Below, piece by piece: positions 29,281 to 64,000 of a stretch of DNA of 64,000 nt. This stretch comes from Ceratodon purpureus. Taxonomy: Eukaryota > Streptophyta > Bryopsida > Pseudoditrichales > Ditrichaceae. How positions within the stretch are numbered: the first letter of the stretch is position 1; each line of letters starts with the position of its first letter. A program made the position numbers and the translations under genes. The notes under the pieces are model-generated. The model had not been told where the DNA came from, ran no database searches, and was given only the letters and a program-made list of their open reading frames with translations. The DNA is taken from positions 85,134,947-85,198,946 of the forward strand of contig CM026426.1 in the NCBI GenBank assembly GCA_014871385.1, read 5' to 3'.

Positions 29281-29289
29281 TCAATGAAA

Positions 29290-36351: not shown

Positions 36352-36361
36352 CTACAAGCAT

Positions 36362-37020: not shown

Positions 37021-37168
37021 ATATTCGTTATTTTGGGAGATATTCTTGAATTTGGGAAATCAGCGTGTAGAGAAATGGCCACATTCGTGCCCTCCCATTT
37101 ACTTCAATCTTGCGGAAATCAATATTGAATCATTAAAAACACCTTGAAGGAACAATGAGGCCCATGTC

Positions 37169-38030
37169 ATTTAGGTCGAGTGGACCTAAATGCACGAACA
37201 TACAGGAGAAAACTCAGTAATGTTCATTATTTCATTAAAAACATGTTTAAAGAGAGATGATGATTAAGTCATTTAGGTCGATCACACCTAAACGCAATAT
37301 AAACAAGGAAAAAGAATATACCACGTCCCCTGTATTTTTAGTAGTAACTATTCGTTACCTTTTCTAAACCACGGTTTCAATAAAAGACAATGTCCAATCA
37401 CATAAATTACATTCGGAAATTTGAATAACACAAAAAGTGTGCAAGACAATGAGGCAAAAATAGCAGACGAGAAAATTTGACAAACAGATCAATTGTTTTA
37501 TTCAAAACATAATTACATTGAAATAACACAGAGGACTCTTATAATCGTCTATATTGTCTGCGCCATTGCTATACAGTACATAGTATCCTCTATATGGTTA
37601 TGGAGTCCCTCCATAAGCCTCAATTCTTGACTTGACAAATTCCCGTTGGCGCTGACGTGTCCACGACATTCCCTCAACCTGCATCATTGGACTATCAAGA
37701 AGACGTTGCAACTTCTGCCTACGCCTGTCACCGATGCTTGACTCTAGCAGAGAGTGGCGACGGGTACTGGATGGTTTAGAGTGGGAGTCGGCGGACTTCC
37801 TTGCCCCGGATTGTGTAGTTGTTGATCGTAGCCTCGGCATCTCCAAGGCAAGTACAAGGGGGATAAATTAGCATTGGGAAGAGATTTCGGTTTAGGTCGA
37901 ATCGACCTAAACTGCTGAGTGCAAGTGTAAAGGTCGAACGGACCTTGAACGAGGAGGCTTACACAAGCTAGAACCAGACCTAGATGAAAGTATAAAAAGA
38001 TCAATCATTTTAGGTGGCCTTGAGCTAAAA
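37169..38030. repeat. Palindrome family P2 (arm TTTAGGTCGA)
   Basis: Copies at 37169-37191 (imperfect), 37272-37292 (imperfect), 37891-37911 (perfect 10-bp arms TTTAGGTCGA and TCGACCTAAA around one base), 37930-37946 (shorter, AAGGTC/GACCTT arms) and a degenerate one near 38007. None overlaps a supported exon. The family was not seen elsewhere in the window. Confidence 0.7.
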
Positions 38031-38441
38031 TAAGGACATCAGAATGAAACATCATGAAAGAAACTTACAAGAATGAAACATCAGAAAGGAATGAAAAGCG
38101 AATACTCAGGAATGAAAACCAACCTTTGCCGGTGGTGGTGACGACATGTCCTCCACATTGTTATAAAGAGCACGCTTTGTAGGGGTAGAACTCTGTCGTT
38201 TCGGAGATAGAACCTGCAGTCCGGTCCGTGGCCACATAGGAGAAGGGGATTTCAGGGTCTTGGGAACGGACAGGTTAACCGGGCTGTCCACAACCCCTTC
38301 GTCGACAGCCATAGTTGAGTAGTCCATCGTGGATTGCGCTGTTGCAACGGATTGCAACAGAAGCCCTCTGCTACGTAAAGAGGGCCCGCAGCCATAAGCA
38401 TTATTCAAAGAATCCACTGAGGCTCGACATGCATTATCCTG
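37598..38441 (-). CDS. Two Ser/Arg-rich exons, either 5' part of gene A or a small separate gene
   Basis: Exon 38441-about 38122 follows a good acceptor (TTGCAG) and encodes a Ser/Pro-rich sequence (SPKRQSSTPTKRALYNN). It ends at a donor GTTGG. The next exon, about 37840-37598, encodes a basic sequence (RRRQKLQRLLDSPMMQVEGM) and ends in TAA. A possible internal donor (ATGCAG then GTTGAG) could instead splice toward the ParB-like exon at 36351. No domain is recognised. P2 palindromes lie in the intron and downstream. Confidence 0.4.
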
Positions 38442-38668
38442 CAATACATAAAGCGAATAGAAACATACATCCACCAATATTTCAGCAATGGTTTAGGGTT
38501 CGTCGCAAGGGGCAGAATAGATCAAGAAAGAAATATAAACTTCGTATTACAAAAGGAGTAGTCTGGATACAAAGATTACGCAAGTGGTAAAGATGTACAA
38601 TATACTAATAGCTCCGCGGCAGTTCAAAAATGTCTATTAACAAAGTAAAGAACCAAAATCATGCCAAA

Positions 38669-39829
38669 TTATGCTCTACGACTGATTGCCTCGTTAATCT
38701 TAGCGTATTGTTCACAGGTAGAACGGTCATCATAATACATTTTCTTCCCGATCGGACGCTCGGCCCTGAATCTAGCGATTGTCCCCACAAAGTGGTGTAG
38801 GTCTACAAGATATGGCAAAAGTTTCGACAACAAAAAACGATCATCTGCGGCATTGGGATTCTGGTTGTTCCAAGTGTCCGCTCAAGTGTAAGAATTATTC
38901 TGACAGTGCTTGATCAGGCTGTCGTCGATAAAAATGGTGTTGGCTTCGGAATATAGGCCACCAAATTTACGAAAGAGACCATCAGACATCGGCTTAAGGA
39001 AGATGTCCTTCTGAGTCTGGGGTTCCTTCATATATACCGGACGACCTCGCAAATCTACGCCCATAGGAACTCTCTGACAGTCCTCTTGACGTAGAATTCT
39101 GAGCGGATAGACAGGACGAATCGGACCGAACAGATAGTCGCAGATCATTTTTGTCGTCGAAGTCTTCATCGAACTCCAGACGGTTATGGTTGCGAACGTT
39201 GACAACCGACGAAGGAAATCAGCGCAATTGGGCCTGATACAAACAAGCTTGGGGCCCACGACTGTTGGCTTGGACGCTGAGTGGATGCTAAGGTCATGGC
39301 TAAGGAATGATTTTCCAGGCCAATTAGGAACACTGGAGCAGAGTATTCCATTGAGGTCGAGGACAACGTTCAACCAACCACTCTGAGGTCGCGTCGGGTC
39401 AAGACTCAATTCTTCACTAGAACTTACGTCACATACAGATGCCTCGCGCACCTAGAGAGGAAATACCAATGACAGATGGACATTACTATATTATACTAAG
39501 ACGGGGTTATACGAATGATACAATGAGGACAGTCGCAAGGCAAGTCATTACCCAAGGAAACAGTGCAACGAGATATAATGATGGATGAAATACCTGAACA
39601 TCCTCGGCTTGACCTTCTACAACATCCCGATCCTCCACAGGACCCATCGACCCTAATGAATCCTGAGGTTGATCGTGAGGAATGACCTCTACGCACGTTG
39701 GCAAGGTCAGAGCACACTGGGCCATGACATCTAAATCCATATTTGTGCGTACAGGCTCATCCGCAGTTTGGGCCATGACAACATCATCCACGATCCGAAG
39801 ATCTTCCACTTCCTCATTCACTTCGTGAC
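38669..39829 (-). pseudogene. HAD/NIF-like protein B (plant D-x-N-G motif), one in-frame stop
   Basis: Exon 39829-about 39594 is acidic; exon 39451-38669 carries a NIF/FCP1-like HAD fold. Seen motifs are VVLDLNGILCSS (motif I), TITVWSSMKTSTT (motif II region) and TIFIDDSLIKH (acidic motif III). The second motif I Asp is Asn, as I recall for a plant NIF subgroup with LD-x-NGLL. A TGA at 38882-38884 interrupts the fold, but the same frame continues 71 codons (LLSKLLPYLVDLHHFVG) to a TAA at 38669, matching the C-terminal part of the paralogues. CGA would repair it. It lies between genes A and B1, like the HAD genes beside C1. Confidence 0.65.
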
Positions 39830-39913
39830 CTGGGCATTGCAAGAGAACTATTGAATCATCAGAGAGTGATCAATGAAGCTGACATAGAAGGGATTGGTAA
39901 AAAGTTGAACAGT

Positions 39914-42635
39914 GTAGCTCGAGTCGAGCTTAACAGCCCATTTGTATTAATTACAATCGTTTTGGTACAAAATGCACATTTCAGTGAACTACTCCGGTAT
40001 TAACACCTCATCTACAAAATTCCGAGTTCACAAAATCTAAGTTTGGGAGGGACCTGAAGATGTCTCGGGAGCATCTCCCTGAGTCTGATTGTGGGGGGGA
40101 GAACGGGGTGGGCTGGGACTAGGGTCACGCATGACCTGGTCGGTGCAATGATGGCTTGGCTCAGGCACTGATGCGGGACTCGGATCCGACATTTGCAATT
40201 TTGCACCACTGGTAGGGGATCACAAAATCTCAAGCACTCGCGGAGAAGGTGGGGCGCTACCTATCGGCTGGACGTTGGGCAGAACTGGACCCGCATTCGG
40301 GAAAATAGGGACGTTACTGATGCCTTGCAGAGCCGCCTGCAGTGTCGCCTGCACAGTCTTCTCTATATCCATTTTCTGCTGTGCCATCTGATCTTGTAAC
40401 GCTTTATTCCTATCCTTGGACGCCTGTAATTCTGCGAGAAGAGCTTAAACATCCGGAGTGGGAGCGGCTCTCTCCAACGGGGATGCTTGCCGAGCTGTGG
40501 GGTTGGGCTTCTTCTTCTTCTGTGCCGGCTTTCCAGTACTTTGCGCACCGCCAGTCTTTCTCTTACTTCCGGATCCCAGCTCCGGTGCAAAACTCGGTCT
40601 TTCATCGTCCGTACGTGTAATGTCGACGTCAGGGAAATCGAGTCTTCTCCCCACTCCACCCTCAGATGCGGTCTGACTTACCGGATCAGAAGGCGGAGCA
40701 TCGCTCTCATTGCTAATGTCCGCAGCACTGGAGGAGGGCGTCTGTTCCTCGGTCGGGGCATCCTCCTCCAGATCAACATCGTCACCCTCCTCCACAGCTC
40801 TGCCTTTCCCTTTCCGCACGGCTCTGCCATATTCCAGAAAGCGTTCCATATCGACATAATAAGCGTCGACACTAAAATCGGTTGGGTCCAGAGTTAATCC
40901 TAGTGACTGAGCTTCGATCATATGAGACGAGTCACTATCATCCGCGACCACGAAAGCCAAGATCGAGAGCATCTGAAAATAACAAAGACAAGGTAAACAA
41001 GGTTTAGCTCGACTCGAGCGAAAGTGTGGAAGTGTATGCATACATGGTGCATAAGATGAAAACAGTAGAACGATTTAACTCGAGTCGAGCTAAAGTGTGG
41101 AAACACTTACCGCGGCGGCCATGAGGGACTTCGTTCCAGCATAGAGCTGATAAACCCCCCCCCCCCACCCCCCCCGAGTACTGCAGAAAGTGTCGTGGAC
41201 CTGCAGTTAGAACTCCATCCTTAACTCGGATGGATACATTGCGTACCTCCTTTCGTTGAACTTCCTGTTGTCCTTGTACAGTGGGTGGTCCGGAGTTGTG
41301 TACTTGATCAGAGGTTCAGGCATTGACCCGTCGTTCTCAAGTACATTATCATCAATGAGAAACAGGAGTTTGACGGGTTCCATCGCGATTCTGCTCTTTG
41401 GGGGGTGTCCGCCGAGTCGCTCGTTAGGAGCGAGTAAATACTCAGAATGGACTCTTCTACGACCACTCAAGGTGTTTCGCTCCACCCAAGTGAGCACCTG
41501 GGCGAAGTCCTCATCGTCTCCGCAAATGAGAAGCCAGTGGCGAACATTGTGAAACTGGGGCTGCCCATACTCATCGATCATTTTGAAGAACTCCATGAAG
41601 AAGGGGTTCTCCAAAGTGTAGTTGTGCCTCGTCTTGTAGGTTGGGAGGAACCGGAAGTCGATGATTCCGAATGTGAGTGCGCCGCCCGCCAACCTCCATA
41701 TATCGGAGGGCCAAGATCCAAAGGAGAGTCGAGGCTCCCTGATGAATGGGAGGAACCACATCTCAGCTGAAGGACACTGAAATGCATGTCGAACCTTCAG
41801 GAAGGTTTTGAAGAACTCAACCGCATATGGGGAGAGATCCTTGGCCGACTTGTTGCGGAACTGTGTAGCTCTGGAGTTAGTCCAGTACGAGTCTGGAATA
41901 CCCCAATCAAGCAGAACGTGCTTCGATTCCTTGGAGACATAGTAAGTCTTCTTGAAATGCTTCCAAGCGGGTACATCAAAGCCGTCTCTCTTGAATAAAT
42001 GGAGCGTTGGATTAATGTTGTTGAACTCCGCTTGAGCTACAGCCTTTCGTTTTCTCCGCTCCGCCCACTCCTTGACCGAGTAGCAGTCCTCCAATACACT
42101 CGTATTATGCTTGATGGTAATGTTCGGATATGTGTACTTCCGACTAGGCCCAGACTTATGCAGGATGTGCTTACACATCTTCTGGTGATCTGCCTCTGTC
42201 AAGTTCCCGAGCCATTTGAAGAACTCCCTCGGAAGCGTCCCATCCTTGTCCGGAACGAACCCCTTCTTCTCATAGAATTTCTTATGAGGAGCTTCAGTGT
42301 CGGGATCAATGAGTCCACCACATGCCGCAGACGCGATCACCTCCTTCCACAAGTCCCATGTTTCATCACTGGATGTGATGATAAACAGCTCATTTGTTAG
42401 GGAGATAGTGTTCTTCCCTCCCTTCTTCGCCACCATGGCTTGATGCTTCGCCACATCGATCATAGCGAAGCGCTCCCTGATTGCATTCACAAAGTTCTGC
42501 ATACGCACAGGAAGAAACCTTAGATGATGCTGTCTCGGAACTACTCTTTAGCTCAACTCGAGCTAAATTGATCGAGATACACCATAATATTGAAAACAAA
42601 GAAGATTATCAATATTTAGCTCGACTCGAGCTAAA
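39914..42635. repeat. Palindrome family P3 (arm TTTAGCTCGA)
   Basis: Copies at 39914-39931, 41003-41023, 41074-41094, 42548-42568 and 42615-42635. The last is perfect: 10-bp arms TTTAGCTCGA and TCGAGCTAAA around one base. Two lie in the gene B1 intron 40977-41112, two in the intron 42501-42660, and one just 3' of the B1 stop. P3 has the same length and layout as P2 but a different core. It was not seen elsewhere in the window. Confidence 0.8.
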
Positions 42636-43930
42636 CTGCTAATGTTAATGAATCAGTGAACTTACGTCGTATGTCTTCGACGCTGGATTACTTTTTGGAC
42701 CTGTACTCCTGCGGTCGGCAGCACCTGCGGCAGCATGTTTCTTTTGGGGCTTACCATACTTCACCCACAATTTTCTAGAGGCAAGTATATTGCTCGCCCA
42801 AGTTGGCTTAAAGGGTGCCAGATGGTTCACCCGATTATAGAATGCTGAGATCTTTCGCAGCTTATCTATATCAAGCGTCCAAACGATGTACACATCCCAC
42901 CTCCTGAAGTCCCTCACCAACTCCTCACTGGCGTTATCCTCGATGAGTGATTTGGACGCCGCCACGCTGTGTTGCCCGTTGATGATGTGGAATGTACAGC
43001 CCCTCAGATCCTCTTCTTGTTGAGGTCGTGCCTTCGTGTCTGGCATCAGACACAGGGTTTGCTTCTGTGTCCTATCCGGCATGTTGACCAAGTAATTCTT
43101 CATCTCCTCCATGCCCCGCTTCTCATATGCACGGATAGTCCAATGGGCCGGTGCGGGCTTGCACCGCGTCACGTCCACACTGAACTTCTTTGGTTGCCCA
43201 TTCGTTTTGAAGACGAACTCGTCCTGGCAATCAGCAAAGAAATTCTGGTAAATGCGATTGGCGTTATCGAAGTCCACGACCTCTCCAACCTTGTTCACCT
43301 TTGGGAGTTCCACGAGAACAGAGTTCAAACATGTTGCCAAGTCCTCCGCAGATAAGAGCAAGTCCTTCTTGGGCTTTGGCTTGTCAGTTTTCTTCTCAAG
43401 GCCTTTCTTCTTCAATGGTGAGTGGGGCGTGGGAGTTGCAGAAGCGCCTCGGCTTTGGGATGGAACTATTGCTCTCCCCCTACTGCGTCCTGTCTGTTGG
43501 CTCCCCATTTGACTCCCGGTTGCTGTCACTCCAGAAACGTCAACATGAGATTTTCCGAGGTTCTGCTTCACCTTTGCCTCCGTTGCGCGGAGAGCAAGGG
43601 TGCTGACAACATTCCTCAGTTTCCACGCTAGGGATTTCGCCGGGAGAGTTCGTCCATCTTTGGTTGCCCATTCCTTGTCCAGTACTTCTTGCCTCATCGT
43701 GGATACTATCTCGTCGTAAGGTGAATTGGACAGACTTTCCATTAAGGAAATGGAGTCGAAGAGATTCTCCGCTACGTCTACTACTATGGAGAAGAGGTAT
43801 GGATGAGCCCCCATAGATGAGCAGAGGATCTTTATTTGCTCTTTCCCCTTATGGTCAAACTCGGTGACCTTTGTATCCATGTCGATGACGTGGGGATCAT
43901 TGACATCACCCTTGAAAATGGTTGCGAAAA
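40037..43930 (-). pseudogene. Gene B1: ParB-like plus degenerate methyltransferase-like protein, three in-frame stops
   Basis: Exon 43930-about 42665 follows an acceptor CTCTCAG and has a Lys-rich linker, then a ParB-like core with HIINGQHSVAASKS. Exon 42500-about 41113 carries a conserved middle region (LFIITSSDETWDLWKEVI, shared with gene C1) and ends near MYPSELRMEF. After an in-frame TAA (41207-41209) the frame continues through a glycine loop (FCSTRGG) to LYAGTKSLMAAA at a donor. Exon 40976-40037 resumes with ILAFVVADDSDS, which together resemble methyltransferase motifs I and II. The tail is Ser/Glu-rich, then a short coiled coil. TAA 40445 and TGA 40220 interrupt this tail but the frame stays open to TAG 40037. 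No D-P-P-Y motif is seen. Upstream exons may exist before 43930. Confidence 0.6.
41155..41175. repeat. Homopolymer C12-A-C8 at the glycine loop of gene B1
   Basis: On the minus strand this reads as Gly codons with one Trp, exactly where paralogues have the SAM-binding glycine loop. A homopolymer of this length is prone to slippage and sequencing error, so the frame through this exon is unreliable. Confidence 0.85.
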
Positions 43931-46900
43931 CTGAGAGAACACTCGGATACGCACAGACAGACAGGGATAGGTTTTTCTTTCCAATCACTCACACAAACAG
44001 ACAGGTTTTATTTCCAATCACCAAGGTTTTATACGAATGGAAAATAAAAATCAAACAGCAAATATGGCTTACAGTATGATGCACAAACATGCAGGATGGA
44101 GGCTCCGAATGAAGAAAAGTCCACGCTCCATAAACTGGACGCGCCCGTTGTCGAGGTCTCCACTCCCAAACGGCACGGGACGAACTCTGCCACTTGCAAA
44201 TTGCAAATCCTTCGAGGATAGTACGTGAGTATAACCCTAAAACCCTCAAACAATATGAGCAGGTCTGCCGAAAACTCGCTTCTGAAACCCTAACCGTGGA
44301 TCACTCTTTCTACTCTTGAAGGCAAATAAAAGAAACACAAACCCCAGCAATGAACACCTGAAACGAAAGGCGCGCAATAACACTTCTAACCATCCGAGGA
44401 AAACATAAACCCTGCAGACCGCAGTCTATGTCAATTGAAGAACTCGCACTCTCTGGAGCAAAGAAACGAAACAAACTATATCCCTCGAACTTGCGCGATG
44501 AAACTATTTCACTGTAGCACTGTGGCGCATATAACTCAACTCTCACAAACTCGATTCCCACACACGGAAACACAGACGCAGTGAGCAAGACACAGACACA
44601 GAAAACAAGGAAGACGATGAAGAAGACCTTTGTGGACGAGGTATTGGGCGGACCAGTTCCTCTCTCGCGGGGGCCAGTGACCGCGCCGCCAAAAGGCGGA
44701 TCCCTGTCACCGTGGGTTTGGATTCGTCCTATGCCCACGGGTTAAAATGTTTTCATTCTTTATAGACCTTGAAATTTAAACTAGTAGAACTAATTTATAT
44801 ACTTAGTAATTTAAACTACTAGAAATAATGTTTCACAGTGTAGGCTAAATCTTGAAATATATTAAAATTAATCCATTCAATTAAAATTGCACTCCAAGTA
44901 TTATTTATGTATTGATGAATGGTATAAGATATTTAATCAAATTGAGTTCTACTTAATTCATATAATTCAAATATTTTAATATTATTTGAATATGAGACGT
45001 CTAAAAATTTGATTAACATGATAATCCTTTCAAATATATGAAGTTCATATTTTTTCAAAGTCGAATTTAATTTGAATACATAAGATTAGAGTTTAAATAA
45101 TAGTTTGTAATTATATAACGAAAGCATCAAATATGAATACACTATTAGTTCTTGAAAATGAATTTACTATACTCTAATTGGAAACATATTTACATAAATG
45201 TTATCATCATATGCATAAAGTACATGTTAGTATCATAATTTATCTATTATATAATAAATTATGATAGTATACTAAGGTACTAATATATTCATTTAGAATA
45301 TCATTTTTAATTAATGATTATAGTACTAGAATAATAATCTATATTTAGGTATATAAAAATCTTAAAATGATATACAAATATATTCAAGTATGTATTATAC
45401 GAAATACATTGTGTGTATATAAAACTTTTGTGTATATATACTGAATTAGAATTCTATTCCAAATAAATTCCATGCCATTTCAAAGATTTTGATAATTCAG
45501 AATTCATATACAAGCATGTACATAGATACTACAATTTAAAAATTTGATTTTCAGTACGAAATAATAATTTTAGTAATATCAGATACACTGAATGGTATTA
45601 TTAATATTTGTAAGAATTGCGAGTTAAATATTACTGGCCCTTTTTTATTTCATTTTTATGAACCTGATTCGGGTTGTGAGAAAGTGAAAATAACTTTTTA
45701 TAGGAATTTACTTTAAAGATAATTACTGCGATTCAGTCTAAATATTGTTAACCCCATATGGTTTGGTAAACCTGCTCTTTCTTACCTTAAGAAGAATTCA
45801 CCATGATGGCTCCAATAACTCACATGGGATTGGAGAACCATGACCCTTAATGTGTACTGTGAATGGAGTTGAGGTTACCAACCCAATGTGAGTTTCAATG
45901 AAACCTAAACAGGATAGGGAACTCGTTTTTTTAGGGTTCTGATGAAAAGTATTGGTAATATTTTACAATGCTTCACAACATGCTTGCATTATTTGAAGTT
46001 GGTTTAGGGTTTTGATTGTATTTGCATTTATATACATTTCTAAATCTACATTAGATTTTGATTTTTGAGTTTTTTGAATTAACTAAATTTTAATCAATTC
46101 AATAATGCTTCTTCCAATTTTGTAATAATAATTTGTAGTTATTTGACTAAGCATCAAATTTAAATACACTATTTGCAATGATAATGAATTTCATATACTC
46201 AAATTGGAAACATATTTACCTAAATATAATCATCATATTCCTAAAGTACATGATAGTATCATAATTTAATTATAATATAATAATATAGTATAGTATACCA
46301 AGGCTCTAATATATTCATTTACAATTTTATATTTAATTATTGATTATAATACGAGAATAATAATCTATATTCAAGTATATACAAATCTAAAAATGATATA
46401 CAAACATATTCAAGTATATATACGAAGTCCATTGTTAAAAATAAAAGTATTAAATTATAGAAATGAATTCATTTATTATGGCAAATTCTTTATATTTTTT
46501 AAAAGGTTTATGGTTTTTTATATTTATTCATGAGAAGCGAATATTTAAACCATGGTATGCCTTGTATGATTGGCATGGAAATTACACAAACCTTAATCAA
46601 TTCATTAATGTTCTACCTTGACTTCTATTTGTACAATTTTATTACATTCTAATAAGAAAGTGGAATGTTTGGTTCATTTGCATAATTTTAAAATACAAAA
46701 TTCATAATTCATAGATTCAAACGAAATTTACTACTACATTTATTAGATAGCATGGACATATTAGAATACAAAATATACAAATATGAAAGCATCAGATGAA
46801 ACACTGGTTTTCGTCTAGAAGAACCCTGTTTTGAAGTCATTCCATTTCAAAAATAGTTTACAATCCACACGGGGAACACCATCAGCGAAAGTTACCAAAA

Positions 46901-47272
46901 GATGAAAGTCATCTGTTTTTACATCTATGGTTTCCAAATATTGTATAATCTAACGGTCCTGCTAACTACTCCTGAAGTCCCCATTCCATATCTGAGGTGA
47001 TTAGCAGCAAAAAGTAAAATCGTAGAAGTTTATCGAAGATGCCTACAAGTTCAGGAGCAAAGAGAAAAACAGGATCAGATGGTATGATGTTTAGGGTTTA
47101 AAACGGAAAAGTGCATGTCAAAAGCAAGGACTCATCCTCCTGACAATCAGGACAAACTCAGCATCAGCCATTAAAATTCTGCGCAATACATACAGCAAAC
47201 GCAATCTATTATTATGAAAACATCAAACTGAAGACAAGGTTAAGGTTTCTATGGGGATAACAATTCACCTAC
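43931..47272. other. Upstream of gene B1 and AT-rich repeat DNA
   Basis: 43.93-44.74 kb probably holds the 5' exons and promoter of B1; a frame at 44310-44738 has no domain. From 44.76 kb the DNA becomes very AT-rich. About 320 bases at 45115-45440 recur in direct, diverged form at 46135-46440 (words such as GGAAACATATTTAC and ACTAGAATAATAATCTATAT versus ACGAGAATAATAATCTATAT). No gene is seen. Confidence 0.6.
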
Positions 47273-48413: not shown

Positions 48414-49103
48414 ATATTAGGCTTACACCCCATGCCAATCATACAAGGTATACCATGGTTTAAATATTTGCTTCTCATGATTAAATATTAAAAATTCAAT
48501 CTTCTAAAAAACAAGGGATATTTAGGTAATTCTGGACAAAAAAAAGTCCGAAATTCAAAAATGACCAATGCGAACTCAGCGGACCGCCGATGGATGGAGA
48601 CCACAGATGAACAGTGTCATTGTACATGAATACCACAGAATATGGAATGCAAAACTAGACATCCAGATGTGCATGGGCGGAATTTGCCACTGATGGATAT
48701 ATGAACCCGAAGATTGCGACATATAATGCAGAATAAGAGTTACAATGAATACTTTAAAGAATATCATGTTGATTCAAGTAATGAAATGTACAATACAGAG
48801 TCGGCGACCCGCCGATAATAGAACACGCTAAACTAACTAGTCCCGTAGCACTTTGAGTCATGAAGTCCTACAACATTAAGTCTACACCCAGCACTATGTA
48901 CCAAGTTGACGTAAATCCTATCACATTATAACCTACTCGGAAAACTATTTCCCTGAAAGCATAGCCGTAAGGTCAATGAGTAAATCATATATTTGAAGGC
49001 CGCACAAACGGGTCGACCAAGTCGGCGGGCAGCCGATGGAAGGTGTTCTGTTGGTCAGGAGGAGGGAAGAAGTGCAAGTTGGAGGCGAAAAAGTCCGCCT
49101 AAC
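48414..49103. other. Non-coding flank with first P1 palindromes
   Basis: No gene is supported. A partial P1 palindrome lies near 48576, a full one at 48800-48816 and another at 49021-49037, downstream of the HAD-4 stop codon. The AT-rich character ends near 48.55 kb. Confidence 0.5.
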
Positions 49104-51186: not shown

Positions 51187-51444
51187 CCTGAAAAATGAAG
51201 GACACATTCCAAGAAAACATGGGTGATCAATCGCATGCTCACAATTCATACTTGCTCTAGTGTACAAATGGAGACACAATAAGACACCCACGACAGAACA
51301 CAGAGTCTCAACACTGAGTTCCGTTCTCATATATTTAAAAGGAGGAAAACTTTATTTACTGAAAAAGTCTAAATACATGAAGATCCCATCGGCGGGCAGC
51401 CGACTGAATCATGTGCATGCTCTCTAAAACAGTTTCTACATCTA

Positions 51445-52214: not shown

Positions 52215-52446
52215 CTGGAGTGACAGAAAACGAAGCAGAGGACAAACGTGACGGTTAGGATGACGGTCGGCGGACAGCCGACTTGCAAGCAACATTATTT
52301 GAAAAAAGGGAAAGCGAACAACTTGGAATTTACCGAAAATTTATTCATATTTGGCAGTATAAACATCTAACACAATCCTAGCGCCCGATCACTACACTAA
52401 ATTATCAATGCAGGCATTTAAAAGATGGACTGGGCCACCGCCTGAT

Positions 52447-55400
52447 TCACTGACCTCCACCTTTGTGCTTCTTCGGCCTAGGCTCCCGTTTGGATGCCCG
52501 CACAGGTGACAGAACGTCCTCTGGAGCGTCCACATTCCTGGGACTCATGAGCAGATCCCCAGATGTGCCCTTCTTGGAGGAAGTCTTCTTCGAAGCAGCC
52601 TTCCGTTTGCCCTTCCCAGAGGACTCCTCCCCTTCCTGAACCCCTGAGGAATCACGGGATAAGTTACCCACAAGAGAGGAATCCTGCGCAGTACCATCGG
52701 TCTTACTTCTCTTCATTGATCGTGTCTTGACCAGAGGGTTCTCATCTGGGCCAATCATCCGAGTTGCGCCCTTCACACCTTGAGTGACGAATGTGATTGA
52801 CTTCCCTGTCAACTTGGTCTTGGCAGAGGGGTTAGATGAGGTTTGCTCGTCTGCCGTCGGCTGCCCGCCGACGGCAGCAGGAGGAACATGCCCTTCAATG
52901 CTCACTGCAGGCTCCTGGGTTGGCTTCAAGACACGGAGAACCACTTCATCGTCAGGCCTCGATGCTAGAGGAACCTGCATCTTCTTTGGACGCCCCGCCT
53001 GGTCTACATCACGTTCTGGCTTGGCGGGAGGAGTCTCCTGCTCTTGAAATGTAGGAGAAATAATACCGAAGCTGAGGGAGTCAGTTCCGGTCTCCCGTAG
53101 AACTTGCGACAGCGGTGGGTTCACGTAACGAGGATTCGATTCTTCCAGTGGTAATACGTCGGGTTCTGGTTCATAGTCTAAGTCCTCCGTGTCTCGCTCC
53201 TCTACCTCTGCATCTCCAGTTGGAATGAAAGCCTCAGCTTGGTCCTCCTCGTTTCTTGGCTGTTCCTCAGCATCTCCAGCTTCATCTTCAACGTCTGGGT
53301 CGGGTACATCTGGTGGCTCCTCGTCGACATCGTCGTCGGAGTCCAGATAACTCTGTGAGCGAACCCCCGCAGTCTTCCCCGAACCCATACATCCACCCTT
53401 TCCGACCAAATGGGCCTCCTCCGCATTCACACCCAAGTCGGCAGCCGTGAGAGAGCCAGTCCTGCCTCTAGCAGAGGCGGGGGCAGACGGCCCGGCCCCA
53501 GACTGCGTGGTCTGAACTGGAGCTTCGACGGGCATGTTATAAACGCCCAGAATGAACGTCATATTCCGAACCCGACAGTGCGCTTCGTATCTCTCTTCCT
53601 CGGTACGCACGATCTCAATTACAGTCAAATGGTTTTTCTGCAGTAGAACAAGACGAAACGGTTAAGGAAATCTTCTACCCAAGAAACACGAAGGATTCAA
53701 TCAGCGTCGGCTGCCCGCCGACGATCGGTGAGCAAACAGCGAAGGCACCAGAAGAGACTGCAGTAACTTATCAGAGCGAGGGCCGTGACGTTCCCCCCTC
53801 CCCAGCAATTGATCACCCGAACGTCCTCAATCTGCATCGCTTTCTCCAGAAGAGATTGGAGGAAAGAGTAACTAGCGTGGCAGTGTCCATTTGACCAATC
53901 CTCCCCAAGATGATCTTCTCCTTCGTCCGCATAGGGAGGAGGCGGACGTTTCAAACCAGTGAAGTCCGAGAAGGTATTCCATGCATCCCCGGGCGTTGTT
54001 TTTGGATACATAACGGACACATGAACCTTGGGTCTAGAGTCAATGAGAGAACTCCTTTGAAACCCGGCGGAACTATCAGGAAGTACTGCATAGTATGAAC
54101 CGTCCACGAATTACTCGTCAGCCTTGACACGCCTTGAAGAGTGTGATTACACTCAGCATCGAGTAGCCACAAGGATGGGGTGACAAGCTTATTCACCTTA
54201 ATTGTATCTACCTCCCCATCCAGAATGACCTCCTCCTCCACCTCAAGGTGAATCCTCTCAGCGACAGTTATAACGTGTTGTTGTCGCAAGTTCGGCATCT
54301 CCTTTCCCGCTGGATCGTAGCCAAAGACCACGAACATCTCATACTGCGCCTTGTTGAAGGAGAACGCTCCGCGAACGTCAAGAGCTGTGCACACTTCACC
54401 CAGGTCCTGTGCAATCCGAACATCGAACTGTACAGACGACTGCGAAGACTGGTCCACATCCGACTTCCAGTACTTTTGCACAATGTCTTTGAAGAATTCT
54501 GGTGTTGGCCCGTGCGACGGCCCGTCCCTTAAGCCACTCCTTCCCCTCAGGACTATCTTCCAAGTCAGCCCGAATATTACTAACGATTGTATCATTGAAC
54601 CCCTTCTCGACTTCAAGGGAATTCCAGTCATCCATGCTCCACTCAATATGCTTCCCAGTCCCTGGTTTCTTCAGTGCAAAGCCCCTGTAAATACACATGA
54701 GCTCGTTCCGGACAACATACTCGTATTTCACATGCTTACACCAATTCTCCACTGATGTTCCATCCAGTTGAACCACCTCTTTCCCAGTGACCTTGACGTA
54801 CACTTTAAGGTCTAGAACTTCCTTGGCCAGCCTCTTGCATTCGTGGTCCCGAAGACCGATCACGTACTGCATGTCGTTGAGTGTTATGTCCCAGCGGGCT
54901 GGCTTTGGGGGAAATCCTGGTTTTAAAACCGTCCTCCCCGATGATCCTCCCCTCCTCCCAGGCGTTGAAGACCAGTTGCCACTCGTTGTATGTTTCGTCA
55001 GACACGAAGACTAAGGGCAGCTTCAAGGTTTGGGACGTAGGGGTCTTTCCGAGAATCGAACTGAGGTACTCCTTGCAGAACTCCTGCAAGGAGGAAGAAA
55101 ATGAAATCGATAAATAAATCCCACAATTACAATACGGAAAACCACCTGAGCGTCGGCGGGCCGCCGACGACTTTCAACTACATGTAGACAACAGGAAAAG
55201 AGGAAGATGTGAATTACCTTCCATGCGCTGAAGTCATCTTTCTTGTCGATCCTCCCCCGCTCGATCCATTTTGCGCGCATCTTCGCCAGCTGGGACCTGA
55301 AACTTACTTCGGCGACTTTATCCTTCACCTCGATGTTTAATGCGTTAGAGACCTTAATGAGGGTATCCTTGTTATCAGCATATACAGGAATGATGTCGTG

Positions 55401-56608
55401 GTTAAGGTAATACTGCCGCATAGGAGAGTCCAGTGGTTCCTTCTCTCCCAGTTCTCGACAAGCCTCAAACGTGTGCTGACCCCCAATTATGTACCAGTGG
55501 ATGCCCTCATCTTCATACCAAGGTACCAGCTTAGATGTACCGTCATCCAGTGTAAGTGAATACTTGATATTTAGGGCATGCCAAGGTCGAAGAAGTCCTT
55601 CCAAGCCTTTAAGCTTAATCTCGCCCGTCACTGGATCCTTTACTCTGGGGTCACCACTCATAGGAAGGCAGTACAGCTCGGGCTTCTTCCGGATTGCTCC
55701 AAGTCCTTTGTAGAAAAGACTTATCTGATCCTGCCTCTTCCTGAATATCGCTCTGTACTTAAATTCGTCGGGAGCTATGTGTATCCTGTTATATGGAATC
55801 TGACAAGGAAGGGCACGTTGCCCGTTGGGGAAGCAGTGCCCAAGTCCCTCCTCCAACGTCTGGTACATGGCAAGGACGTCGGTGTCCTTTGTTTTGGAAG
55901 TGAGATTGTTTGCGAGCATGAGAGCTTCCGCCACGGTCTGCTTCTTCTCTTCCTTCTTCCCACCTTTCTTCTTCCCACCCTCGCCCTCAGCAGCCGCTTG
56001 CCTTTCCCTTCTTCCTTCTCGATGACTCCCCTGTCGTCTGTGTCTCTCCGGTCTCGGGGGTGACTGTACCAGTGCCCGCTTCTACAGCAGACTTGCGGCC
56101 GCCTCTTTTCTTTGCTGAAGGCTTAAACCGAGTTCTTCGTCTTCTCTTCCATCACTTTGTCCCCGAGCGTATCAATCACGTCGAGTATTTGATCAACAGC
56201 TATGTTCTCACCCCTGCCCCAAGTAGCCGCATCCTGTACTTCTTTAGAGCACAAGCCGTCCATGCACTTCTCAACCGGAATTACAACCGCGAAGCAGTCC
56301 ACTCGTGTGCCCTCCGCGACAGGAACCGATGCAAACCACCAAGCACACGTTGTCGTTATCCTCGCATTCCCTGGCACCAATAATCTCAAATCTTGGTCCA
56401 CCTGCATTTGCTTCTGACCTATTTTGGTCACAAAAGCCCAGCGACGTGGGAGTGTCACGCCAGTGTGATGCCCCACTCCGTTATCTTCCAGATCAACGAG
56501 GAATGTCACCCTCGGTTTCAAGCCCCGTGCTTGTATTCTTCCTTCAGGATCAACAACCTTGTCACAGAGCCACCGTAACCCATTTGGTTGTGCGGTGGGG
56601 TCGACCAT
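52447..56608 (-). pseudogene. Gene C1: ParB-like plus degenerate methyltransferase-like protein, several frameshifts
   Basis: Exons: 56608-55218, 55083-53768, 53637-52447, with GT..AG ends. The ATG at 56608 is preceded within five bases by a good acceptor, so upstream exons are possible. The first exon has an unknown N-terminal part, a Lys-rich linker and a ParB-like core with WYIIGGQHTFEACRELGE. Exon 2 begins with KLPLVFVSDETYNEWQLVF, shared with B1, and ends with RVINCWGGGNVTALALISY, resembling motif I. Exon 3 opens with NHLTVIEIVRTEEERYEAH, resembling motif II, then an acidic and basic disordered tail. No D-P-P-Y is present. Frame breaks occur near 56.12, 56.00, 54.90 (a run of five C), 54.53 and 54.05 kb. 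P1 copies lie in both introns (55152, 53706) and in exon 3 (52856, read VGGQPT). Confidence 0.6.
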
Positions 56609-56649
56609 CGCCCTGCAAAATCAGAATCACAAGATTAGACCATCAGATT

Positions 56650-57255
56650 CTCACCTCCATCGGCGGACAACCGACGAGGGGGATGGACACTCCCTCCCCA
56701 TCGGCGGACAGCCGACGAGGGGATGGACACTCCCTTCAATCGGCGGACAGCCGACTGAGGGGGATAAACCCAAATCAGAAAACCCTACATCGGCGGACAG
56801 CCGACGGGGGAAATAACCCATGTGAGAAATAGAACATTGAAGGACTCAGAAAGGGGTGGCGTTGGCGGTCAGCCGACGGGAGGAACCAAACCCATGCGAG
56901 AGACACAAAACTGAAGGACAAAAGAAGGGGTGGCGTCGGCGGACAGCCGACGCCACGGGACAAACCCATGCGAGAAAACCGAAACATGAAGGACAAAAGA
57001 AGGAGTGGCGTCGGCGGACAGCCGACGGGAGGGACAAACCCATGCGAGAAAAAACAAAAACATGTAAGGACAAAAGAAGGAGTGGCGTCGGCGGACAGCC
57101 GACGGGAGGGACAAATTCATTGCGAGAAAACGGAAACATGAAGGACAAAAGAAGGGGTTGGCGTCGGCGGACAGCCGACGGGAGGGACAAACCCATGCGA
57201 GAAAACGGGAAACATGAAGGACTCAAGAAGGGGAGCGTCGGCGGACAGCCGACTT
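56650..57255. repeat. Minisatellite of ~75-bp units, each with one P1 palindrome
   Basis: P1 cores fall at 56861, 56935, 57010, 57087, 57163 and 57237, spacings 74-77 bases. The shared unit contains AAACCCATGCGAGAAAAC, GAAACATGAAGGACAAAAG and AAGGAGTGGC, followed by the P1 core and GGGAGGGACAA. A shorter-period block (56659, 56700, 56739, 56789; units with GGGGATGGACACTCCC) adjoins it. The array lies just upstream of the gene C1 start. Confidence 0.9.
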
Positions 57256-58334
57256 GACAACTTACCCACTCTCGGAGGCTGCCATACCGTCGGCGGATGG
57301 CCTTTCACCGTCGGCGAATGACCTTCGAACAGCAGCCGACGCGCGCAGGTGAAGGAGCCGACGCCCTCAACCCCTAGCAGCCGACGCAGAAACAACCTAG
57401 CAGCCGACGCGACCTCTGCGGAGCACTGAGAAGAGGACAAAAGAGAGCTGAAAAAGAGAAGGCTGGAAATGATGGAGGAAATGGTCGGGGGTGGCGGGTG
57501 TATACCCTGCAGACCCCCACCTCCGAGACTGAATCGTCACGACGCCGATGGGTCATGACGTATGGCTATGTACATACCATCCATGCATGGATGGTCATCC
57601 CTAACATCTGTCCCATCACGCCACGTAGGATGATGATGGGAACGTCTTTTGACCTTTTTTCAATACGTCACCAAGTCATGGATGGCGTGGGCATGTGATT
57701 GTGACAGCTGCTCCAATCGCCACGTTCAAATTCGTAAATGAACTAACATTGTTGTGTGACGGTGGGGTATCTCGCCGCCATGATGGGATCTTGATCTGTC
57801 CAAGGCGCGCAAAATTGAATTCGATTCTGGCGCCAATTTGTACTCCTGGGAATTCATAACTAACCCCCGTCAGATGCGCATACTTCATTCTATTTCTGTC
57901 ATTGCACTTTCGATTCCCTCTGAGAGTGCTCCTGACGCACACGTTTCTTGAGAGGACCGTTATTATTCCCGCATGTGCTTAACTGTCCCCGCACCTTCTG
58001 TTGCCGTTTCTGTTGTCTTCGTCTATCGTTTCTGATTGGACGGTTGAGAGGAGTCTCTGATTGGACAGGTTAGGGACAGCATACTGCTTCTCCACTAAGG
58101 TCCCGTGCAATTTCTGTCGGCGGACGTGGCCGTCATCGTCGGCGGATGCTATTTCTGTGCACACTCCGAGTCGTACGACTCGCGTCGGCTGCCCGCCGAG
58201 TCGTCTTCGTTGTCGGCGGATACATTTTACTCCGTCGGCGGGGGACACTTCCTGTCGACCCTGTCGGCTGTCCGCCGACGAGGTCTTCATCTTTTATCCA
58301 ATAGAAGTAGAGCCGATCCAGACGTTTCTAAGGA
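57256..58334. promoter_or_regulatory. Divergent upstream region of genes C1 and D
   Basis: About 1.1 kb separates the minisatellite before C1 (minus) and the ATG of gene D (plus, 58335), so both promoters should lie here. It holds many P1 half-sites (57256-57420, 58110-58250) and full P1 copies at 58183 and 58263. No core promoter element was recognised with confidence. Confidence 0.4.
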
Positions 58335-61300
58335 ATGGCCGATCCGGGCGGGTGGAAGGTTAAAAAGGGCGTTGTCGTGGCCCTTACTCATTCTGGGCTC
58401 TATTATGCAGGCAGGGCAGTGATCCAACGTGTTGTAGAATTTGATCCTATAGTGGTGGTGGTAAAAGTGATTGACGTTTCAGACAACATGGAAATGAATA
58501 TACCATTTCCGGATGAGGGTGTGAAGTCCTTGAGCAATTGCTTAGGACAAATGATATTGTGGGAGGCGGCCGACCTCAGGCCTTTCGGAGAGGTGGAAGA
58601 CGATGACATCAACGCCGTCGGCTGCCCGCCGACGGATGTTGAAGAAGATGTCAAGCCCGTTCAAGAATTCCTGGACCTCGCAGAGCAGATGAAGTTGCGC
58701 TCCTCGAGGAATCCGGAGGCTCAAAGCGTTGTGTAGCCGCTGGAGTCATTATGGAATGCTCTCCTAAAGGAACGTGGGAGGGGTCTTGATTCCTCACAAC
58801 TTCTTTCTAATAGTGAGAGTGTCGTCCAGTCAATCCGAATTCTCTGAAACACCTGCTTTCTGCGAGTTACCGGATGTGTTAACGATCGGGTGTGCTGTGG
58901 GGCGATTGGTACTTTGGAGTGGATACAAGGTATGTCCACTTGTGAACGGCGCGTTGGCTGGCACATGTCCCGTCGGCTGCCCGCCGACGGAACCCTCACT
59001 TGGGGAACGAAGATGAAGAAATTGATGAAAGCAACTCCGCTCCGTCTGAGCAGGATCTGGGGACTAGGTCTCAATGAATATCAGCAGTGACGACGATGTG
59101 TCTAAACAAGGGGAATCCGACGTAGAAACAGATGATCATTGTTTGGGGTCCGGATTCCGGGACCTCGGGGTACTCCTTCCACTCCAGATGCTTCTTATCC
59201 TGACCGCCACCTCTGGAGAAATCGGTATGTCGAACTTCTAATGATGATCTATCAGTCCGTGGTAGAGCAATGATTCAAGTATGTTTACCGGACGAGGCAT
59301 GTGATGATGAAGTCCTAGGGGATACAGAGGTTGGGGTTCTCTTCGTCTCTGAAGGACGATCATCTGCCAGATGACAAACTCTTCAGATGGCGTCTGACTC
59401 ACACTCGGTTAGAAGGGGGTCACCTTCTCTCTGATATAATTACTTACTGCTCCGAGAATTTAGCAGACGCCGACGCGGACGATGGTCAGGATGGTTGTCC
59501 CGAAGAATGCCTATCGATCGGTGCGGAGGAAAGTTCGCGAAAAAGATGATGTCTCTTCCACTAAGCTTTGTCGAATGGTTGTCCCTGCTGAATGCCGCTT
59601 AGTGAGCTCAAAGCGCTGTTGCAAGGACCGATGTTGCCAGACTTTTAGATGGGAAGATACTGTGAGTATTCGTCGTAAATTTTACGCAACAACATTCGAG
59701 GCGAGGCGAGAGATGTCCTTCGCTGTGCAAGGGCACTTACATACTGTAACCCGGCAAGCGGAAGCTCTATGTTACTCTTGCGAACCGTTTGACGTATGTG
59801 AAGTGGCGTGGTATATCATTCACGGAGAGTAGTAGTAGTATCGAAATCCGCGTACTACAGCTACAAGGCTTCGGCCCGAAGTGGTCGTGTCAATGGGAGT
59901 CACGGAAATTCCGGTGTTACATCGTCCCCAGATTCACACAATCCAGGCCCGCACAACGTTGACCACTATCGTTAATGAGAATGCCGACCAAATTGCCCAA
60001 TGAGTTTCGGATGATTGAGCAAGAAGAGAAGTGGCCGCGCTCAAAGTACTCCCGTCTGCGATGAACTGGAATCACATGCGCGAAATGGCCAACGCCGTAA
60101 GTTCCTCCTCATCTTCTTTTCACTTTGGATAGTTTACTGAATTGTCGTGATTACTATCGTGGGCTGCCCGCCGACTGGATGACGAACTTCCCAACTGATC
60201 GACCTCACTCTGTGCTATTCAGGTCAATGAGCAGTGCAACGCGAAGTGATTTCGCAGTCCTCCGTTAGTCGGCATGAGGAAGGAGTACTTCCGCAACGTT
60301 GAGGTCAAGGCAGTAGGAAGTAATTCTCCAAGTGCATGAGTGTGACTTCCTCGTTGAACTCATTGCCAAGTATCCAAGAGGGTCGGACGAAGTGGCAGAG
60401 CTTGACAGTGAGGATAGGACCAGGCATTTGAACTATCAGCGAGCTTGTCGCAACATTTATTACGGATGGACAACCCAATCTATACAGAGTCCTACTGAGT
60501 TCCTATGCATCATACATGATAAGATGGACACATCGAAAACAGCGATTCCCCCGCATGCAACGTATCACGAAGGCTACGGCAGGGCTTGGTCAAATTCCGA
60601 TTTCCTGTACTGGAATGCTGACTCACGGTCACGGAGATGGCGCCTACGCACCACTATGCAACTGCCCTGTGGCCAGGAGACCCAAATTTCACACTCTCCT
60701 CGTTGTGCAGGGTATTCCGTGCCTTGGAGAGACTACCTGTCCGGGAGTCAAAAGCACTCTTCGAGGCACCGCCACAGAATGAATTCTTTGCAGCGCTAAT
60801 GCATGGATCGTCCACGTTGCATCCCCTCAATTCCACCTTCTAGAGATGAGCCACTCACTCCACCTCTGCCTGGTAGGCCTGTTGTTCCTTTGCCGAAGAA
60901 GTTGTATCTCCAGCTTGACAATTCTGCGAAGGACAACAAGAACCGGTTTCTTCTAGCATTCTGCTCGTTGCTGACAGCGAGGCGAATATTCAAGGAAGTT
61001 ACAGTTGGTTTCCTGATTGTGGGACACACACATGAGGACATCGACGCCCACTTCAGTCACCTATCGAAACTCATTAAGCGAAAGAACACATACTGCCTTG
61101 CCGACCTTATGAAGGCATTCATGGATTCTCAGAAGACAGTTGCCTTTATTCCAGAGGTTGTTCAGGAAGTGGCAGACTTCAAAAGTTATGTTGCTGATTT
61201 TCATCACGACGGAGGTAATGCGATAGAAGGTCACAGTGAATGCATCTTTTTAAGTTCTATGTAGTGGAGGATGGGGAGGATGCGGGGTGGCCCGTGATGA

Positions 61301-62211
61301 GGTACAAGAAGCGTGCAACTGATCCGTCATGGCTTCCACCTGGCAAACCCGTGAAAATGTGGAGGGCAGACAAAGAGGGTAAACCACGTTTGCCCGTCGG
61401 TGATCCCAAACCGGTTCCTCATAAGCACTTATGGGGTAGTGTTGAAGTCGATGAGGGCAAGAAGAACGCGGATAAAGAGGTGGCAAGGGCAGCGGAGTGT
61501 TCAGAGAAGAGAAATTTCAAAAGTGGATTATCTAAGTACATTGAGTACTGGAGAACTGGCATGGTCGGGATAAGAAATACGCACAAGACATGTTACCATA
61601 TGTACTGTATTGGGAGCGAATTTTAAAGGAGGTCAACGAGCCACTGCCCCCAATTCCGCCACCTTACAGGAAGGATTCTGGCCTATCTCAGACTGGAAGC
61701 GGGACCACGTCACCACATTCGATGCAGAGGACGAATATATACCGGATCCGGATATTCCCCGGTGACGAGGATGAGGTGGAGCCCTATCCTTTCTGTGGTC
61801 CGAAAAACTCTAGGCCGAAGTCTGTGTTTAACCCATATCGTGACGTTTTACGTGGCGATTGGGTTTTCTGTCGTCCGTGTAAGGAAGACCACCTACCCAT
61901 TTGGATGGGTAGGGCGATAGAGCCTGTTATAACAGAGCCTGGTCCTAATTACGGTAAGTTCAAGGTTGAATGGTGGACTCCGATGAAGGGCAAGAAGGAA
62001 GGTAAGAAGAAGGTTGCGAGAGAGCTGGACAAGACGGTGGGAAAGGGAGACTCTTGCGGAGTGGGTGGAGTGTAAATCCGTTGTATACACTCATAGGACC
62101 AAGAAAACTACGCATGAGGGGCCCCCAAAGTCCCATCTAATACCCGAAGATGTTGTGATTGCTGCCATGGCAAAACTTCGAATCGCATGGAATCTCGATG
62201 AACTGGAATGA
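58335..62211 (+). pseudogene. Gene D: DUF7869-type (transposase-like) gene, multiple frameshifts
   Basis: The ATG at 58335 opens a frame with GWKVKKGVVVALTHSGLYYA ... SLSNCLGQMILWEAADLRP, a Tnp1/DUF8039-like small domain. A second such module follows (58780-58930: DVLTIGCAVGRLVLWSGYKV). Downstream are CCKDRCCQTFRW with VSIRRKFY, then CEVAWYIIHG, KCHECDFLVELIAK-like and FLCIIHDKMDTSKTAIP segments. The DUF7869 core is KKLYLQLDNSAKDNKNRFLL and VGFLIVGHTHEDIDAHFSHL (60893-61068). The C-terminal block is GDWVFCRPCKEDHLPIWMGR, ending at 62211. Consecutive segments fall in different frames at several places (for example near 59.0, 60.55, 60.65, 61.24, 61.60 and 62.03 kb). An intron at about 60100-60223 contains a P1 copy; other P1 copies are read as VGCPPT. 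Seen: motifs and breaks. Inferred: transposon origin. Confidence 0.6.
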
Positions 62212-62815
62212 CGAGGAGGAAGACTAGTCGGCTGCCCGCCGACGATTGTGATCTTAGCTGAAGATGTAGCTAGTGATGGTTTCCTCTGTAAAACGTTATA
62301 GTTGAATATTGTAAACACTGTGATTCCTTCGAATAAGAATTGTATTCTACCATAGACCCAATACTAGTCATGTATTACGCTTTGTCTTCTATTTGTTGTT
62401 CTGATGCTTACTTTTCCTTCTTCGGTGGTCGTCGGCTGTCCGCCGATGCCTCTAACCATGTTAGATAAGCATCATGAACGGTGACTTTGTGAGGCTGGTC
62501 TATATTGTATGGCCTGTGATTTTTACGGTGGACACTGTTACTCTAGTCGGCTGCCCGCCGACGCTTTCCACAAAATTGGTAGAACCACTATGCGCTTTGA
62601 TAAACTGAAAAAATATTTATCCATTTCATTATATTCTTATCGGAGTACAACGGTAGTGTTCCGCCCTTTACATGTTACTTTGTATTGTGTATACATCAGA
62701 GATGCCACTACTCCTAAAGCCTCAGTAACAAATGCTAACCATGAATTCTACAACTATCCGAGTGTGTGAAGCAGCTCTATTGAAAACGAGCTGGACAATT
62801 CTAACACACACTAAT
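62212..62815. other. Downstream flank of gene D with three P1 copies
   Basis: No gene is supported. P1 palindromes lie at 62227, 62431 and 62546, the first only 16 bases after the gene D stop codon. The rest is ordinary AT-rich sequence. Confidence 0.5.
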
Positions 62816-63400
62816 TCACCCTAAAGCCAAAAAACCAAAAAGCTGCATATGGGCCAACGCCATGAAGCGATCAGTCCTTCGCAGTAGACTTGGCTCGGAC
62901 AGCACTACACCCAGTATCGACGGATGGATGCACGGATCCAAACGACGAATACGTGGACTGCGGGCTTGCGTTCCCTCCGCACCACTGATCTTGGCCAGAG
63001 CACCGACTTCCAGCACCCTCCGAGATGTCGTAAGCTTCGTCAACAATGCGGAGCCACCCTGCAGTTGACATGGTTTGCGTTGACACTCCCCTGTGTGGCT
63101 GAAGTGAACGCTGCCAACACTCTCGGACTCCTCAGACTCCTCGGACTCCTCGAATGTCAGTGGGAAGGCGATGCCGGAAGCGTCAGAGATCTCCAACAAC
63201 TCAATGGTGTGAGCAATACTCCAAAACCACTCCGCACCTGGCTGCAGAAGGCGTGTGATATTTGAAAGCTGGAATGGCGGTGTTGCGAGAACGGGCGACC
63301 ACCGCCCTATACCATGGCCGGAGCTCCTCGAGGTCAGCCGGTGACTCCTGATAACCCAGGTCTCACATTGCTACCCGCCTCCCATAACGACAAAAATATT
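62816..63400 (-). pseudogene. Damaged paralogue of ORF E
   Basis: In minus-strand order the sequence keeps LEELRPWYRAVV, then in another frame NITRLLQPGAEWFWSIAHTI and ELLEISDASGIAFPLTFEE, matching ELRPWFMAVE, NLIVRLMQPGVEWDWTIAHG and LEIMNASNIKFPLTSGE of ORF E at 47 kb. At least one frameshift separates the two halves (near 63.26 kb). The C-terminal part carries a Ser-Glu run from a GACTCCTCG repeat. Its function is unknown. Confidence 0.5.
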
Positions 63401-63574
63401 GGACAATATGCGACTAACTTCTACAGTATGCGACCTGCTTCTACAGTATGCGACCTTCTTCTACAGTGGACAGCCGACGAGTTCGTCTAGTAAACTGGTA
63501 AACGTTCTAGTAATCCACTTCTCTAGGGTTTTCTGGACGACTAATTGCCAACGTCGACCTAGTCTAGTAGCCCC

Positions 63575-63870
63575 TACTCCCCTACTCGGCTGGTAGCCGA
63601 CTAGGACTAGCCTACTCATCATTTGCATTATTAGGACTAGGACTTATTTATCATTAGGACTAGTAGCCCCTTCTCCTACTCGGCTGGTAGCCGACTAGGA
63701 CTAGCTTACATCATTTGCATCATTAGGACTAGGACTTATTTACTCATCATTAGGACTAGTAGCCCCTACTCTCCTACTCGGCTGATAGCCGACTAGGACT
63801 AGCTTACTCATCATTTTTATCACTAGGACTAGGACTTATTTCCTCATCATTTTATGTATTTCAGATTCCA
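63575..63870 (+). repeat. Tandem repeat, ~96-bp unit, three copies, with a hairpin TCGGCT-GGT-AGCCGA
   Basis: The core ACTCGGCTGGTAGCCGACTA recurs at about 63584, 63679 and 63776 (the third has GAT in the loop), spacing 95-97 bases. Each is followed by GGACTAG and CATCATT words. The hairpin arms TCGGCT/AGCCGA resemble the inner arm of P1 with a shorter loop. No gene is seen in 63.4-64.0 kb. Confidence 0.8.
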
Positions 63871-64000
63871 GAGGTCGGTTCAGTGAGGAAGAGGTTGGCT
63901 CTCCTAGTCGGCGGCCAGCCGACTACAAAGGACTTCCATTCGTTGTGACCGTGAATACTGTTCATTCTAAACGACGACTCCGGAGTCCTCACAGACGGAC

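Follow-up and report, generated by a model that had tools for sequence, protein, structure and literature searches.

We analyzed 64 kb of the moss Ceratodon purpureus genome (hereafter the window; 85.13 to 85.20 Mb of a 110.5-Mb contig), in which three families of short palindromes, P1, P2, and P3, occupy separate domains. These palindromes are, with near certainty, private and inherited parts of transposons. P1 belongs to a DNA transposon, E-C, which starts at position 48513 and extends beyond the end of the window (48513 to 64000), and P2 and P3 belong to a second multi-copy element, E-B (37015 to 48512), which is interrupted by E-C at 48513. We further consider it probable, at a clearly lower confidence, that the palindromes are recognition sites of a predicted protein encoded by the element itself, the candidates being the related proteins B1 in E-B and C1 in E-C.

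Palindromes private to two transposons

The exact P1 palindrome (GTCGGC-N5-GCCGAC) was found at 17 sites between 49864 and 63907, whereas 100 dinucleotide shuffles of the window gave at most 3 members for any palindrome family with 6-bp arms. Allowing one mismatch gave 31 sites, the 17 exact ones included (48800 to 63923; shuffle mean, 0.03). The joint P2/P3 pattern (TTTAG[GC]TCGA-N-TCGA[GC]CTAAA, up to 3 mismatches) matched 9 sites between 37170 and 42635, with a shuffle expectation of 0.00: three P2 sites (37170, 37272, and 37891) and a mixed P2/P3 site (38009) at 37170 to 38029, and five P3 sites (39913, 41003, 41074, 42547, and 42615) at 39913 to 42635. Positions 1 to 48500 were free of P1 at up to 1 mismatch, and positions 1 to 37014 and 48501 to 64000 were free of P2/P3 at up to 2 mismatches. 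A sequence-only reading of the window had described three sharply partitioned families, and these counts and shuffles bear it out, as they do the ranges given for P2 (37.2 to 38.0 kb) and P3 (39.9 to 42.6 kb). Its range for P1, 48.6 to 63.9 kb, holds from 48800 onwards, the site near 48.6 kb (48575) being a P1 with 3 mismatches.

The half-site GTCGGC[GT]G occurred 53 times in the window, 52 times at 48 to 64 kb (shuffle mean, 2.33; largest value, 7). Some of these half-sites were solitary, several of them between the divergent genes at 57.3 to 58.3 kb. P1 is better written as GTCGGCKG-N-CMGCCGAC, i.e., as two inverted half-sites flanking one base, which is the layout of P2/P3.

E-C is a DNA transposon with terminal inverted repeats, as seen from its inverted ends, its target duplications, and its multiple copies. 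The window copy is collinear with copies at 4.08 Mb and 1.25 Mb of contig C1, the long matches being 95.8 to 96.7% identical, and full copies measure 15,748 and 15,622 bp. The inverted ends of those two copies read AAGGG[AG]TATTTA[AG]GTAATT[CA]TGGACAAAA, their 4-bp target duplications are ATAA and TTAT, and in the window the end repeat begins at 48513. Since ends and duplication are AAGGG and 4 bp rather than CACTA and 3 bp, we rejected a CACTA identity for E-C.

For E-B, we took 20 loci from six contigs, each a 10-kb stretch surrounding an exact P2 site. In every one, similarity to the window set in at 37009 to 37015, and 37015 is therefore the left end of E-B. P3 was present in 19 of the 20, the exception (L013) matching the window only up to 39712. 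Towards its right, E-B can be aligned with a copy on contig C3 as far as 48512; because this copy continues past that point, where the window has the E-C end, E-C is nested inside E-B, as judged from the left side of E-C alone. P2 and P3 are hence two parts of one element and not, as had been proposed, two separate loci. Similarly, the palindrome-bearing units had been taken for neighbouring gene loci, but they are copies of multi-copy transposons, and the domain borders at 37015 and 48513 are transposon borders; copy number and sharp ends rule out ordinary gene loci. The right part of E-B (44759 to 48510) is AT-rich and holds long inverted repeats with arms of 295 and 165 nucleotides (91% and 98% complementary).

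Genome-wide, the comparison with even scatter and chance frequency that the sequence-only reading had called for was run in part and gave no refutation. Exact P1 was found 2858 times and its reversed control 3 times, and the P2 pattern (up to 2 mismatches, which takes in exact P3) 3176 times and its reversed control 0 times. The P1 places listed, the first 50, covered the first 5.73 Mb of contig C1 and fell into clusters of 14, 18, and at least 17 plus one single site; 49 of the 50 lay within three E-C copies, and the three clusters coincided with places of DUF7869, a domain encoded by E-C (see below). In 34 kb of E-C copies we counted 54 P1 and zero P2 or P3. Conversely, 200 kb of E-B loci yielded 98 matches to P2 and 130 to P3, with overlap between these two patterns, and 2 P1, of which one is in locus L023, where an E-C fragment is present as well. 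Each motif is therefore enriched in its own element family and, apart from these 2 P1, exclusive to it in the stretches examined.

Gene content, intron arrays, and conservation of the sites

E-B carries the B1 gene on the minus strand (40445 to 43988; exons 42666 to 43988, 41247 to 42496, 41111 to 41180, and 40445 to 40972, from a gene model and homologs), and P3 pairs sit in its introns 42497 to 42665 and 40973 to 41110. A NIF-like phosphatase domain on the same strand (38672 to 39451) has a broken frame in the window copy; in annotated relatives, this domain and B1 form one protein. Sixteen C. purpureus proteins match B1 at 74 to 89% identity, 12 of them with U or V chromosome locus names (UG and VG), and we infer that the contig is the V chromosome of this moss. 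One Physcomitrium patens protein matches B1 at 33% identity.

E-C encodes three NIF-like reading frames (49104 to 52254, minus strand), C1 (52450 to 57285, minus strand), and a DUF7869 protein (58338 to 62208, plus strand). C1 is split over several frames and several of the DUF7869, C1, and NIF frames are broken in the window copy; long open exons for all three are present in other copies. The DUF7869 assignment (PF25273, E of 3.1e-44) comes from a Pfam profile search of the E-C copies, and we regard this protein as the putative transposase of E-C. A genome search gave 150 scored matches among 1397 candidates, with open frames of 678, 966, 980, and 942 amino acids, and because these lengths vary, further DUF7869 families are likely. 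We found no paper naming DUF7869 in the literature searched. Active NIF-type members carry DxDx(T/V); the NIF-like domains at 38882 to 39451 and 50729 to 52254 read DLNG, DING, or DIKG and may hence be inactive. A small gene in the right part of E-B (47276 to 47647) has a relative in E-C at 62816 to 63370.

The main palindrome arrays lie in first introns. The window copy of E-B departs from the other copies at 43928 and is without its array. Five intact copies each held ten P3 (up to 3 mismatches; 8 to 10 exact) within 0.5 to 0.65 kb, and in 4 of the 5 the array lay in B1 intron 1, flanked by a very small first coding exon and by exon 2; in the fifth, L027, exon 1 was not recognised. Between 3 and 7 sites per array extend to the 27-bp form CAGTTTAGCTCGA-N-TCGAGCTAAACTG. 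Thirty of the 45 spacings measured 50 to 54 bp, which is near five helical turns and is explained by the copying of one unit too. The palindromes are near-identical, unlike the spacers, which vary from copy to copy and are in part inverted. In L025 to L029 (at about 1280 to 1915), the spacers between P3 appear partly flipped, as if by recombination between palindromes.

E-C has two P1 arrays with units of about 40 and 74 bp in C1 intron 1 (56657 to 57253; ten P1 at up to 2 mismatches) and a third P1-type array with 98-bp units near its right end (63564 to 63847). Each unit of the three arrays has one P1, and the motif columns are 98% conserved, compared to 67%, 83%, and 91% for the remaining columns. 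C1 exon 1 was also recognised in one of the other E-C copies (copy A) but not in the second (copy B). The related genes B1 and C1 thus both have an array in intron 1, each built from different palindromes. A Joint Genome Institute relative of C1 (P0018) reads through an identically placed intron, which has the same P1 context, and 2 of 17 B1-family proteins read through P3-like stretches.

The palindromes lie mainly in non-coding DNA, introns included. Only 3 of 21 independent P1 sites were in coding DNA, although 68% of E-C is coding by the gene model (P of 5e-7, or about 4e-5, calculated by hand, if the frame-edge sites 50098 and 51003 are counted as coding), which agrees with the sequence-only reading that had placed them mostly in introns or between exons. 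The intergenic stretch between C1 and the DUF7869 gene (57286 to 58280) contains isolated P1 half-sites as well as palindromes at 58184 and 58263.

Palindrome positions are kept between copies of E-B and of E-C, and the palindromes therefore travel with the element. We aligned 18 E-B rows, i.e., the window and 17 of the 20 loci (L013, L016, and L020 were dropped), and obtained mean identities of 0.970 for palindromes, 0.929 for non-coding DNA, and 0.956 for coding DNA. The loci had been chosen by site 37891, which was therefore excluded from the resampling test; the eight remaining sites had a mean identity of 0.966, compared to 0.927 for non-coding DNA (P of 0.0019). The imperfect sites 37272 and 38009 were also kept across copies. 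In the three E-C copies, the arms of the printed P1 sites change little; at 51388 and 55152, the central bases differ in all three copies and the arms are constant.

Predicted recognition by a self-encoded protein

We propose that the palindromes of each family would be bound by a dimeric DNA-binding protein that the element itself encodes, for which B1 and C1 are the candidates. By occupying promoter, introns, and intergenic DNA, such a protein would keep the element transcribable, either through anti-silencing, like the Arabidopsis VANC proteins, or as an activator, and joint drift of motif and protein would keep each family acting on itself. This reading builds on the inverted half-sites around one base, the solitary half-sites between divergent genes, the sequence constraint in E-B, the non-coding placement, the intron 1 arrays, and the one private motif set per element. 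B1 and C1 share a conserved core and are strongly diverged (E of 7.5e-4 for B1 against C1; 1.5e-5 for the P. patens B1 relative P0017 against the C1 relative P0018, both in a set of 20 sequences), as would be expected if each protein reads its own motif. That anti-silencing in particular is the function, we suggest only tentatively, by analogy.

The analogy is with the VANDAL transposons of Arabidopsis (PMC5735166, PMC10398659). There, VANC21 binds YAGTATTAY; VANDAL21 copies are enriched in this motif, which lies in non-coding regions and introns and has grown by tandem repeats. VANC6 has other motifs. The moss elements are alike in having a short family-private motif that is mainly non-coding, occurs in introns of their own genes, grows in tandem, and differs in related families. 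Unlike them, the 9-base VANC21 motif is arrayed in one orientation, whereas the moss motifs are palindromes of 17 to 27 bp, and binding and demethylation have been demonstrated in Arabidopsis, whereas the moss system is known from sequence. No VANC (DUF1985) or Mutator-like (MULE) transposase Pfam match was found in the frames scanned, a part of all frames. The moss system may therefore work like VANDAL/VANC without being a member of it, with an anatomy of the same kind, other proteins, and palindromic sites.

Several observations weigh against recognition by B1 and C1. Scans of both proteins against Pfam and NCBIfam recognised no DNA-binding domain, a PDB search stayed at chance level, and the AlphaFold model of the P. 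patens relative had a pLDDT (predicted local distance difference test score) of 31.6 and was not used. Site 37170 of E-B is no more conserved than its flanks, and 39913 is less so. In the three E-C copies, P1 overall had an identity of 0.932, compared to 0.962 for non-coding DNA, counted without the arrays (56601 to 57259 and 63561 to 63859) and with a site missing from copy A scored as different; this low value arises because copy A is without site 49864 and the central bases vary. Some P1 lie within coding sequence (52856, 58617, and 58972). Finally, the reading is drawn from two well-characterised element families only.

Relatives of B1 and C1 in known classes were also sought. ParB proteins spread from palindromic parS sites that are present in several copies, and the moss elements resemble this in their multiple palindromic sites, in a protein that may spread, and in a B1/C1 core that looks ParB-like by eye. 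Unlike parS, the moss sites are dispersed in a eukaryotic transposon, and we rejected ParB because Pfam and NCBIfam gave no ParB match for the proteins scanned and the PDB hits were at chance level. A DNA methyltransferase, likewise suggested by eye, was rejected as searches gave no support, apart from a sub-threshold match in E-A (see below). A search for C1 relatives returned one, and none when made by region; a pattern search of viral contigs gave 59 matching stretches and no relative.

Among the alternatives, an unlikely one is that the palindromes serve transposition in the way that subterminal repeats do in CACTA elements, with a TNPA-like protein of the element bringing both ends together for the transposase. 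In CACTA elements (PMC2613891), private motifs near the ends, some able to form palindromes, are bound by such proteins. As in CACTA/Spm, the moss elements would have a self-encoded, here putative, DNA-binding protein and have repeated motifs, partly in arrays, that are private to the element and differ between families, and P1 does come close to both E-C ends (48800 and 49021; 63585 to 63907). However, the CACTA motifs are subterminal, whereas most P1 and P3 lie in the interior of the elements, within introns and intergenic DNA, with the main arrays in intron 1, kilobases from the ends, and E-C differs from CACTA elements in its ends and duplication length, as described above.

It is improbable that a small mobile or self-spreading palindrome, like repetitive extragenic palindromes (REP) or miniature inverted-repeat transposable elements (MITE), invaded each element and was then amplified. 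The P1 in coding sequence and the absence of site 49864 from copy A would fit such insertions, but a deletion explains that absence equally well, positions are fixed in the copies compared, and independent insertions at different places were not seen. Solitary half-sites exist, and the near-absence of P1 from E-B loci, together with the lack of P2/P3 in E-C, also speaks against mobility. Solitary half-sites, the keeping of imperfect sites, and the constraint on exact sequence fit protein-binding sites better than a mobile hairpin. The suggestion of the sequence-only reading, locus-by-locus spread or homogenisation of a hairpin, survives in its second half, since ten near-identical palindromes between differing spacers indicate local homogenisation, but not in its first, as other copies have the sites at the same positions. 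Least probable, by a little, is a function at the RNA level, in which intron hairpins act on splicing or small-RNA production: the P3 pairs and arrays in B1 introns and the P1 in C1 introns would suit it, but sites also lie between genes, exact sequence is kept beyond pairing, imperfect sites persist across copies, and a one-base centre makes a poor loop.

Neighbouring stretches and wider meaning

Next to E-B lies E-A (28987 to 37014), a stretch that has 170-bp repeats of its own, built around TGATCGGGGCCGATCA-like motifs, of which the window holds 22 (up to 3 mismatches, both strands), compared to 0.47 expected. The repeats lie at 28987 to 29152, 32008 to 32977, and 36383 to 37014, and alternate units hold one or the other half. 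A match of E-A to N6_N4_Mtase reached 15 bits (E of 0.025), below the threshold of 26.7. Beside an E-B copy on contig C5 (16.92 Mb; L014, 8469 to 9900), we observed a 201-bp tandem array with one palindrome per unit, P4 (CCCTACTGTCG-N4-CGACAGTAGGG), altered in some units; this is possibly another element with a palindrome of its own. Elsewhere in the window, 94 copies of the hexamer CCCTCT (19135 to 19698) lie inside a 1268-amino-acid frame that looks by eye like a Ty3-type polyprotein, and frames at 1489 to 4028 look, also by eye, like a CACTA (Tnp2-type) transposase.

We found no description of these elements or palindromes in the literature on Ceratodon transposable elements, Ceratodon palindromes, and related subjects, judged by titles and the starts of abstracts, subscription papers being outside its scope. 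To our knowledge, sequence-specific anti-silencing has been worked out only for Arabidopsis VANDALs. The moss elements might, although we rate this as doubtful, hold a second and independently evolved sequence-specific anti-silencing code in plants, in which every element is marked by a private palindrome that its own dimeric B1/C1-type protein reads, the gene of this protein bears the densest array in its intron 1, and motif and protein co-diverge (P1, P2/P3, and perhaps P4 and the E-A motif).

For annotators there is a warning, as the C. purpureus protein sets list B1-type transposon proteins as ordinary genes. If the proposed code is real, private recognition codes would arise repeatedly in transposons, in the moss with other proteins and long palindromic sites, and the elements would offer matched protein-site pairs for the study of coevolution. 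It would also be relevant to the question of why large elements accumulate on the sex chromosomes of bryophytes.

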